Shown: one piece after another, positions 40,314-42,378 of the stretch
Layout of the letters: each line of letters starts with the position of its first letter
How positions within the stretch are numbered: the first letter of the stretch is position 1
From: Nitrospirota bacterium
GTDB lineage: Bacteria > Nitrospirota > Nitrospiria > SBBL01 > JAADHI01
Assembly (NCBI GenBank): GCA_029261215.1
Contig: JAJDBT010000058.1
Coordinates: 1-42,378 of the forward strand
Length of the DNA: 42,378 nt
Direction of reading: 5' to 3'
Made by a program: the position numbers and the translations under genes
The notes under the pieces: generated by a model
What the model was told of the DNA's origin: nothing
Seen by the model: only the letters and a program-made list of their open reading frames with translations
Databases searched by the model: none

Positions 40314-41306
40314 ATGGAACTGGGAACCACACTTACGCGCTTTATTATTGCACAGCAACGAAAATATCCGGGGGCTTCCGGCGATTTCTCCGGCCTGCTC
40401 GCGGAGATTGCAACTGCCGGAAAGGTCATCTCCCACGAAGTCAACAAAGCCGGCCTCATCGACATTCTGGGCTATAAAGGGAAAAAAAATATTCATGGTG
40501 AAGAAGTTCAGAAACTGGATGATTTTACAAACAAGGTTTTTATGAAAACCTTGAGTCATACCGGTCATCTGGCAGGCATCGCATCGGAAGAAATGGACGA
40601 TATTTACCAAATTCCGGAAGAGTTTCCAAGAGGGAAATACGTCTTTTTAATGGACCCGCTCGACGGCTCTTCAAACATCGATGTCAACATCAGCGTGGGT
40701 TCTATCTTCTCTATTTATCGCCGAAAGAGCAGCGGCCCTCTGGCGACAATGGCCGACTTTCTTCAGCCGGGGCGCAATCAGGTCTGTGCGGGGTATTTGA
40801 TTTATGGATCAAGCACCATGCTCGTCTACACCACGGGTCACGGCGTTCATGGCTTTACGCTTGATCCGGGCATTGGAGAATTTCTGCTTTCACATGAAGC
40901 CATTCAGATCCCGTCTCAAGCCACCATCTACAGCATTAACGAATCGTATGCCTCAGAATGGTCTGATGGTGTGCAGCAATACATCGAATACGCTAAAAAA
41001 GGCGACAAAACAGCACGTTATGTGGGATCGCTTGTCGCCGACTTCCATCGTAATTTATTAAAGGGAGGCATCTACATCTATCCCGGAGACAAAAAAAACC
41101 CCAAGGGGAAACTGCGTCTCTTATACGAGGCCGCTCCGCTCGCCTTTATTGCCGAACAGGCCAAAGGCCGCGCGAGTGACGGCCTATCCTCAATGATGGA
41201 CATCGTCCCGGAATCCCTTCACCAGAGGGTACCGCTCGTAATCGGCAGCCCCGAAGACGTGATACAGGCAGAAAAGTATATGTCAAAAATTGACAATCCA
41301 TCCTAA
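40314..41306 (+). CDS. fbp: fructose-1,6-bisphosphatase class I
   Basis: Class I FBPase hydrolyses fructose 1,6-bisphosphate in gluconeogenesis or carbon fixation. The 330-residue length is usual. Metal and substrate motifs are visible: IASEEMDD, FLMDPLDGSSNIDVNISVG (the inositol-phosphatase signature), YSINESYASEW, RYVGSLVADFHRNLLKGGIYIYP and GKLRLLYEAAPLAFIAEQA near the C-terminus. AGGAG seven bases before the ATG at 40314 decides the start; another ATG five bases earlier is out of frame. Its 3' end holds the tRNA-Ala promoter. Confidence 0.97.
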   Translation: MELGTTLTRFIIAQQRKYPGASGDFSGLLAEIATAGKVISHEVNKAGLIDILGYKGKKNIHGEEVQKLDDFTNKVFMKTLSHTGHLAGIASEEMDDIYQIPEEFPRGKYVFLMDPLDGSSNIDVNISVGSIFSIYRRKSSGPLATMADFLQPGRNQVCAGYLIYGSSTMLVYTTGHGVHGFTLDPGIGEFLLSHEAIQIPSQATIYSINESYASEWSDGVQQYIEYAKKGDKTARYVGSLVADFHRNLLKGGIYIYPGDKKNPKGKLRLLYEAAPLAFIAEQAKGRASDGLSSMMDIVPESLHQRVPLVIGSPEDVIQAEKYMSKIDNPS

Positions 41307-41318
41307 ATGTTTTATCTT
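41290..41318 (+). promoter_or_regulatory. sigma70 promoter of tRNA-Ala
   Basis: A perfect TTGACA (41290-41295) and TATCTT (41313-41318) are 17 bases apart. The -35 box lies inside the last codons of fbp. The expected start near 41325 leaves a leader of about 23 bases before the tRNA. Confidence 0.65.
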
Positions 41319-41347
41319 TTCCCACCTTTTCACCACCATGATTAAAT

Positions 41348-41423
41348 GGGGCTGTAGCTCAATTGGGAGAGCGCCTGGTTCGCAATCAGGAGGTAGGGGG
41401 TTCAATCCCCCCCAGCTCCACCA
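41348..41423 (+). tRNA. tRNA-Ala (anticodon CGC)
   Basis: The acceptor GGGGCTG pairs with CAGCTCC (one G-T pair). The D-arm is AGCTCAATTGGGAGAGC, and the anticodon stem CCTGG-TTCGCAA-TCAGG has the loop TTCGCAA. The T-arm is TTCAATC in a G/C-rich stem, the discriminator is A, and CCA is encoded. The anticodon CGC reads GCG alanine codons. Confidence 0.96.
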
Positions 41424-41461
41424 TTAAAATCATCCATTAAACGATTTCTTAAAAAAAACAT

Positions 41462-42067
41462 TCACACATTCAAACGAAAGAGCGCGACCACTTTACCCAA
41501 AATCTGCACTTCAGCGTCCTCTGCCGTAATCACAATCGGTGAAAAGGCTTCATTTTCGGGTTGCAATATAATTTCATTGCCCCGTTTAATGAGGCGTTTA
41601 ACCGTCGCCTCCCCTTCAATCATCGCGACCACGTTCTCTCCGGTTTCGGCGTCGGATTGCGGTTTCACCAGCACAAGATCGCCATCTAAAATCCCGGCGT
41701 CTTTCATGCTTTCCCCCTGCACCTTGAGTAAAAAAACATCTTCCCAGCGGGCGATGGTCGGGTCGAGCATCAAATGCCCCAACAAATGTTCCTCGGCCAA
41801 AATCGGCGACCCGGCCGCGACTTTTCCTAAAATGGGCACAGCCCGTCCCGAAACCTGCCCGGTCACTTCAATGGCCCGCGCCCCTTTTCCACGCCGGATA
41901 AAACCTTTTTTTTCAAGTGCGATGAGATGTTTCTCCACCGCCCGCGTCCCGACCATTTCAAAATGCCCGGCAATCTCCCGAAGCGAGGGCGGATAGCCCT
42001 GTGTTTCCACGGTTTTACAAATCATCTCCAATACCTCTTTTTGTCGTTGTGTAAGTTGAGTAGCCAT
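41462..42067 (-). CDS. lexA: SOS repressor LexA
   Basis: LexA represses DNA-damage genes and cuts itself when RecA filaments form. From the ATG at 42067 it has 201 residues, the usual size. The N-terminal winged helix (LTQRQKEVLEMI, then GYPPSLREIAGHF) is followed by the self-cleavage site Ala85-Gly86 (KVAAGSP), the catalytic Ser120 (GESM) and Lys157 (EATVKR), closely matching E. coli Ser119 and Lys156. The recognition helix reads GTRAVEKHLIAL, unlike E. coli, so the operator is probably not the E. coli SOS box. The frame continues ten codons upstream of 42067, but the promoter position supports the shorter form. Confidence 0.95.
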   Translation of the reverse strand: MATQLTQRQKEVLEMICKTVETQGYPPSLREIAGHFEMVGTRAVEKHLIALEKKGFIRRGKGARAIEVTGQVSGRAVPILGKVAAGSPILAEEHLLGHLMLDPTIARWEDVFLLKVQGESMKDAGILDGDLVLVKPQSDAETGENVVAMIEGEATVKRLIKRGNEIILQPENEAFSPIVITAEDAEVQILGKVVALFRLNV

Positions 42068-42076
42068 ATGCCTACC

Positions 42077-42105
42077 ACAATAGAACGCACGAAACATTTT
42101 GTCAA
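42077..42105 (-). promoter_or_regulatory. lexA promoter
   Basis: On the minus strand a perfect TTGACA (42105-42100) and TATTGT (42082-42077) are 17 bases apart. The expected transcription start is near 42070, only two to three bases before the lexA ATG, so the message would be nearly leaderless. GTTTCGTGCGTTC inside the spacer is a possible operator half. Confidence 0.6.
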
Positions 42106-42128
42106 GCGTGGGTGAAAATTGATCATGG

Positions 42129-42157
42129 TTGCAGTAGTTTATATCTGTTGGTATTAT
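42129..42157 (+). promoter_or_regulatory. candidate promoter divergent from lexA
   Basis: TTGCAG and TATTAT are separated by 17 bases. Transcription would start near 42164, just before the short reading frame at 42170. The -35 matches only three of six positions. Confidence 0.35.
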
Positions 42158-42169
42158 TCGAGGGAATGC

Positions 42170-42247
42170 ATGTCCAGGCTTTTTACATTCAAAGACTTCA
42201 TAGATAAAACAGAGCGAAGCTCATTTTATCTTCAAATCCTAGTGTAG
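42170..42247 (+). pseudogene. short 25-codon frame, possibly a gene interrupted by an IS630-type element
   Basis: ATG at 42170 is preceded by AGGGA with four-base spacing and by the candidate promoter. The peptide begins SRLFTFKDFIDKTERSSFYL and stops at the probable edge of the transposon. It may be the surviving 5' end of a gene cut by insertion, a leader peptide, or chance. An imperfect hairpin (42203-42230, GATAAAA...TTTTATC) lies within it, which weakens the gene reading. Confidence 0.3.
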
Positions 42248-42251
42248 TGTC

Positions 42252-42378
42252 CTAAACTAGTTGGAGTTTATCTAGGGTTGCACGGGCACGATCAACTTTT
42301 GTCAATATTTCTTCAGCAGATTTGGTCCATACGAAGGGTGCCGGATCATCATTATGCTTTTCGATATAACGAAGGATA
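42252..42378 (-). mobile_element. C-terminal end of an IS630-family transposase, cut by the window edge
   Basis: The last 41 codons on the minus strand read RYIEKHNDDPAPFVWTKSAE, then EILTKVDRARATLDKL and a TAG at 42252-42254. The pattern (I-x-x-HN-x-x-P-x-PFVWTKSA-x-x-IL-x-K) is the standard C-terminus of IS630-family DDE transposases. The element end should lie within the next 5-30 bases beyond the stop. TA dinucleotides, the IS630 target, occur at 42240-42241 and 42245-42246. The catalytic core is outside the window. Confidence 0.85.

Follow-up and report, generated by a model that had tools for sequence, protein, structure and literature searches.

A candidate LexA operator at the start codon of a lexA gene with a predicted near-leaderless transcript in Nitrospirota

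How might a LexA repressor control its own gene when the promoter seems to leave almost no leader and the familiar LexA boxes are missing? The question is raised by a lexA gene near one end of a 42,378-nucleotide stretch from an uncultured Nitrospirota bacterium (the window), which is contig C79 of a 3.37-Mb genome in 125 contigs. The gene lies on the minus strand (41462 to 42067), starts with an ATG at 42067, and encodes 201 amino acids. It is solitary, adjoins a tRNA-Ala gene, and has the contig end about 310 bases upstream.

The lexA gene and its promoter

The product scored 217.3 bits against the LexA repressor model TIGR00498 (cut-off, 110.95) and contained both Pfam domains, LexA_DNA_bind and Peptidase_S24. 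In a 15-row alignment, its A85-G86 cleavage site and catalytic residues S120 and K157 fell in invariant columns. Judged by these features, the protein is a standard LexA that is unusual only in its recognition helix, VGTRAVEKHL; a previous sequence-only reading of this stretch had likewise described GTRAVEKHL as atypical. The nearest LexA matches came from the Nitrospirota assemblies FO_M_Nitrospirota_01.1 (Nitrospiria; 93%), OFTM336 (87%), and OFTM249 (75 to 76%), and a copy on a Candidatus Manganitrophus plasmid was more distant. An in-frame ATG at 42097 was considered as an alternative start and found unsupported. In the two nearest relatives (L034 and L035), that stretch contains a stop, which excludes the longer frame there.

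Read on the minus strand, the upstream region consists of a -35 hexamer TTGACA (42100 to 42105), a 17-base spacer, a -10 hexamer TATTGT (42077 to 42082), nine bases, and the lexA ATG. This was the sole promoter-like match on the minus strand within 41300 to 42378, and the sequence-only reading had also named it as the only good lexA promoter. A scan of both strands of that interval returned 3 matches versus 1.4 (standard deviation, 1.2) in shuffled sequences, so the promoter match in the window by itself is weak evidence. Seven of the eight family promoters were compared with one another (L004, L034, L035, L036, L037, L008, and L015); the eighth, L089, has a 10-base gap and was omitted. The -35 hexamer was invariant in 7/7 promoters (6/6 columns), the spacer was invariant in 1 of 17 columns, and the -10 element was kept along with its distance to the ATG. 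No Shine-Dalgarno-like stretch before the lexA ATG was kept among the relatives. The nine bases from the -10 hexamer to the ATG, kept in relatives, are a placement expected of leaderless genes. The usual spacing between a -10 element and the transcription start predicts a start at 42069 to 42071, about 2 to 4 bases before the ATG, which agrees with the earlier estimate of 2 to 3 bases. Together, these sequence features support a near-leaderless promoter geometry that is conserved among the kin of this lexA.

The same geometry was counted across six genomes. The pattern TTGAC-N17/18-TANNNT-N5/7-ATG matched 168 times versus 31 for its reversed form, and the same pattern with N11/13 matched 95 times versus 26, in both cases unfiltered for gene-start status. 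The excess at leaderless spacing is real, though just about twofold over the longer spacing. Among IMS-family polymerase genes, all seven promoters seen had, by eye, TTGAC, TANNNT, six bases, and an ATG or GTG. Two of the seven belong to the window's genome (G000:C40:5517-5554 and G000:C21:927-964); both look leaderless, with TTGACG-17-TANNAT/TAAGAT and six bases to the ATG.

A palindrome on the start codon

Seven published LexA box patterns were sought in the 299 bases upstream of lexA and its first 31 coding bases, and none was present: the E. coli-type CTG-N10-CAG, the Gram-positive GAAC-N4-GTTC, GTTC-N7-GTTC, GGTT-N10-AACC, TTAC-N3-GTAA, CTAA-N5-TTAG, and GGA-N5-TCC. The absence of the first two had been reported correctly by the sequence-only reading, which went on to suggest an operator within the promoter spacer, GTTTCGTGCGTTC (42083 to 42095, minus strand). 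This stretch sits where a repressor could act, and it contains GTTC, which we take to be part of known LexA boxes. However, none of its 13 columns was invariant in the seven family promoters, the window's sequence there matched the other family promoters with an average identity of 0.37, and nine other bases upstream of the ATG were conserved far better. The search for the motif elsewhere in the genome, which had been suggested along with it, returned the single occurrence at lexA and no second copy even with one mismatch allowed. We rejected this candidate, and consider it extremely improbable that LexA binds there.

The relatives point to a different element, which the sequence-only reading had not noticed. 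The candidate LexA operator is an 18-bp palindrome, GGTAGGCAT/ATGGCTACT (42059 to 42076, minus-strand reading; here and below the slash marks the axis), recognized by its symmetry in 15 lexA genes. Its axis falls between 42068 and 42067, immediately before the A of the lexA ATG. In kin, the conserved dyad is GTAG-N8-CTAC, centred on the lexA start codon, and the class consensus is GGTAGNCAT/ATGNCTACC. When 85 axis positions were scanned in 15 representative genes (L012 to L014 were dropped as near-copies of L011), the axis before the ATG had a mean of 7.47 of 9 pairs, with at least 7 in 12 of the genes, while the best of the other 84 axes had a mean of 3.4. The window copy pairs at just 7 of 9 positions, so the weight comes solely from the relatives, which share ancestry and among which near-copies inflate the conservation. 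Three of the relatives (L034, L035, and L037) pair at 6 of 9 positions. G007 carries a perfect palindrome, GGTAGTCAT/ATGACTACC; the copies read GGTATTCAT/ATGGATACC in Manganitrophus-type genomes and TTAGTCAT/ATGACTAA in L102.

The two halves covary. Pairs 5 and 8 were each G-C in 13 of the 15 lexA genes and T-A in the other 2. Because the left members of these pairs are non-coding and the right members belong to codons 2 and 3, constraint on the protein cannot cause this covariation. The core pair 3 was C-G in 14 of 15 genes, and the window's CATATG has the CAN2TG dyad. Pair 4 was symmetric in only 5 of 15. Three right-hand positions are set by the ATG, so only the left side is informative there.

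Across Nitrospirota, lexA sites share the frame GGT-NNN-CAN/NTG-NNN-ACC. The triplet is AGN in the window's group, GAA in some relatives (as in the Gram-positive box), and ATT, CTA, or GTC in others. Most of the non-AGN sites lie between the -10 element and a separate start codon, as in GGTGAACATTTGTTCACC, and the site is found on the ATG in one LexA group only. In 17 of 59 scanned loci, the best dyad coincided precisely with the in-frame ATG from which lexA starts. An 18th ATG-centred locus is the Manganitrophus plasmid copy (L038/L107), in which lexA is frameshifted after the first helices and the start-codon-centred site, GGTATACGT/ATGAATACC, is intact. L108 has an in-frame ATG at the axis and a second ATG downstream after a purine-rich stretch, perhaps an intermediate arrangement, and three loci (L039, L040, and L112) have an in-frame TTG or GTG at the dyad axis. 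In a 51-row LexA tree, 14 start-codon-centred rows formed one group (support, 95/86; 94% of 200 bootstrap trees); the tree, rooted at its midpoint, speaks to this grouping and not to the polarity of change.

The triplet appears to vary together with the LexA recognition helix. In a comparison made by eye, helices of the form xVEKHL or xAEKHL were paired with TAG, GAFKHV or GVARHL with TAT, GAQKHL with CTA, AVKKHL or AVKGHL with GAA, and AVRKHL with GTC. L036/L037, with GVQRHL and TAG, is an exception.

Genomic matches and polymerase cassettes

Exact matches to GTAGNCANNTGNCTAC numbered 6 in six family genomes, every one at a lexA start codon, and of 4 further sites with one mismatch, 1 was at lexA and 3 were not. 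Within the window's genome, lexA was the only match at up to one mismatch, versus 6 for a reversed control. With two or more mismatches over the 12 positions, more than 100 sites would be expected by chance according to a hand estimate. The pattern GTATTCATATGAATAC, with up to two mismatches, gave matches that were all at lexA genes (7/7) in four Manganitrophus-type genomes (none in G011). When 16 bases were specified and up to three mismatches allowed, the window's genome contained 2 matches versus 10 for the reversed-pattern control: one at lexA and one at C83:7261, the latter within a reading frame of 666 codons. This comparison gives no excess across the genome, and the site may thus act on lexA alone.

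Two other near matches in relatives (G002:C36 and G007:C5) fall inside reading frames. A third, at G007:C17:30264-30301 (L132), places GTAGCCACAAGGCTAC within the spacer of a promoter with TTGACA; the two small genes that follow look, by eye, like a HigB/HigA toxin-antitoxin system. The promoters inspected singly for the operator were those of recA and IMS-family genes. No match occurred in the 260 bases before recA in six genomes, where recA has a Shine-Dalgarno sequence, and none in the IMS-family (dinB) promoters of six genomes.

Translesion polymerase cassettes are the other setting in which the site was seen. Several relatives have lexA as the first gene of an operon that also encodes an ImuA-like RecA-fold protein, which has weak Rad51/RadA matches, and a B-family polymerase (PF00136). 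A search for the ImuA-like protein gave 14 matches in 12 of 16 genomes, with the polymerase confirmed for part of the 14. Ten of these, with a visible promoter, carry the start-codon-centred site, nine via lexA and one (G001:C42) directly. Two others (G019 and G022) come after a lexA gene with its site away from the ATG. The remaining two, on C86 and C87 of the window's genome, come after LexA copies that the contig ends truncate at residue 73.

The G001:C42 cassette consists of imuA-like and polB genes with no adjacent lexA. It reads TTGACA-17-TATAAT-GGTAGGCATATG, and this copy of the operator, which has two mismatches, is separated from the imuA-like gene by 33 bases. The cassette retains the promoter, the left half, and the ATG, followed by a six-codon frame and then by the imuA-like gene with its own start. 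From its sequence, this operator is likely a trans target of LexA. The same region (L059:191-300) has an extra half-site, ATGCCTACC, beyond the -10 element, which creates an exact 9-base inverted repeat around TATAAT.

In the window's genome, C86 and C87 (L094 and L095) each contain the C-terminal half of a LexA-type protein, then an ImuA-like gene and a B-family polymerase gene. They probably represent a pair of near-identical cassettes, headed by lexA, that the assembly has broken. In this assembly, only the window's copy matched the model of the LexA DNA-binding domain, and the first halves of the C86 and C87 copies were not found. The operator was seen before the translesion polymerase in G001 and in those relatives whose cassettes begin with lexA; in the window's genome, the cassette promoters are cut off by the contig ends, so trans control there is argued by analogy with G001 only. 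On that analogy, the product of the window's solitary lexA probably acts as repressor both of its own gene and, in trans, of the C86 and C87 cassettes.

The cassette polymerase (L092:6184-8463 and L095:1410-3638) has DFASMYP as motif A, and a simple pattern found no DTDS-type motif C in it. According to PMC7544198, archaeal B2 and bacterial G2 polymerase groups have one Asp only in motif C. In Manganitrophus-type genomes, start-codon-centred lexA paralogues also precede a gene for a DEAD-box helicase whose domain 4 is of archaeal type (PF21280; L102:4072-7549 and L103:4726-8126) or lie upstream of a DnaE-type polymerase (L100:5632-11608).

Autorepression, its alternatives, and known systems

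We consider it likely that lexA is autorepressed through the start-codon palindrome at a near-leaderless promoter, with a regulon made up of lexA and the polymerase cassettes. LexA dimers would bind the 18-bp palindrome. With the promoter directly upstream and almost no leader, the operator would coincide with the region where transcription starts (about -7 to +11). LexA bound there would keep RNA polymerase from acting, presumably at open-complex formation. Upon DNA damage, RecA-stimulated self-cleavage of LexA would release the operator. Since the right half comprises codons 1 to 3, operator, start codon, and first LexA residues would evolve as one element. The targets would be reduced to lexA and the ImuA-like/B-family polymerase cassettes that are headed, now or formerly, by lexA.

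It is possible to read the palindrome as a feature of translation, kept for the sake of the ribosome or mRNA rather than LexA. The start codon is inside it, and with an mRNA that is probably near-leaderless, initiation signals must fall there. Yet the left half would be mostly outside the predicted transcript, the frame GGT-NNN-CAN/NTG-NNN-ACC recurs off the ATG and upstream of the start in other Nitrospirota lexA genes, and the G001 copy precedes an imuA-like gene with a separate start, 33 bases further on. In these genomes dinB, too, shows the leaderless geometry, yet it lacks such a palindrome. We regard this explanation as quite unlikely. The link between LexA and the site is drawn from sequence alone, and the palindrome could in principle be the operator of another regulator that controls lexA. 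We think this most unlikely, given that the site tracks lexA genes and cassettes and almost nothing else, even on contigs with different neighbours, and that variation of the triplet with the recognition helix is what autoregulation predicts.

Alternatively, a more distant upstream promoter could drive lexA and give its mRNA a normal leader, the near-leaderless promoter being incidental. The context between lexA and the contig end is partly unassembled, and the significance of the promoter scan is low for the window alone. We nevertheless give this scenario hardly any weight: there is no second promoter-like site on the minus strand, relatives preserve TTGACA and the distance to the ATG but show no visible conservation of sequence further upstream, nor do they preserve anything like a Shine-Dalgarno sequence ahead of the ATG.

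Under autorepression through the start-codon palindrome, a broader proposal can be made, on which we are evenly divided. In one Nitrospirota LexA clade, an 18-bp element may have come to unite the operator, the start region of the promoter, the start codon, and the first three codons, and its SOS regulon may have shrunk to itself and a portable lexA-imuA'-polB translesion module, with several paralogous modules per genome sharing the operator. If true, the operator and not the function of the protein would dictate the N-terminal residues of LexA, and changes in operator specificity would go along with changes in the recognition helix. The leaderless promoter would force the operator onto coding sequence, and the repressor's own first residues would carry its binding site. 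The site is a candidate LexA recognition class for Nitrospirota, for which our searches of the open-access literature found no described SOS box. The natural series of recognition helices paired with operator triplets bears on an old question, how LexA specificity changes.

The closest known counterpart is the Gram-positive (Bacillus-type, or "Cheo") LexA box, with the consensus GAAC-N4-GTTC. The Nitrospirota palindrome has the same CAN2TG core at the same spacing from the axis, and L017, L039, and L040 carry GGTGAACAT/TTGTTCACC, which contains GAAC-N4-GTTC itself. It differs in its triplet, AGN (or ATT) instead of GAA, and in its GGT/ACC flanks; the window lacks GAAC-N4-GTTC and has its axis on the start codon. 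The operator thus resembles a Gram-positive-type box with an altered triplet, placed on a near-leaderless start codon. The sequence-only reading had spoken of an undescribed operator; this holds in that no published box is present, but core and spacing are those of the Gram-positive box with the triplet changed. Leaderless mRNA promoters are known from Deinococcus and actinobacteria, with lambda cI as the textbook case. They share with lexA a -10 element close before the start codon and the lack of a Shine-Dalgarno sequence, and are enriched in these genomes, whereas lexA here is predicted from sequence to retain a leader of 2 to 4 bases.

Other LexA boxes include GTTC-N7-GTTC, TTAC-N3-GTAA, and GGTT-N10-AACC (PMC8565304) and, in Balneolaeota, TTACACATATTTTWTACATA (PMC7739468). 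PMC8565304 counts 17 distinct LexA motifs and links motif change to lexA duplication. In the portions of these two papers accessible to us, no box has GTAG-N8-CTAC and none is described on a start codon; as there, one repressor family appears to have shifted its site between lineages. The cassettes recall the imuA-imuB-imuC (dnaE2) mutagenesis cassettes, which are controlled by LexA according to PMC3901139. Both are LexA-linked operons of a RecA-fold protein and a polymerase, but here the polymerase belongs to the B family (PF00136) and lexA belongs to the operon.
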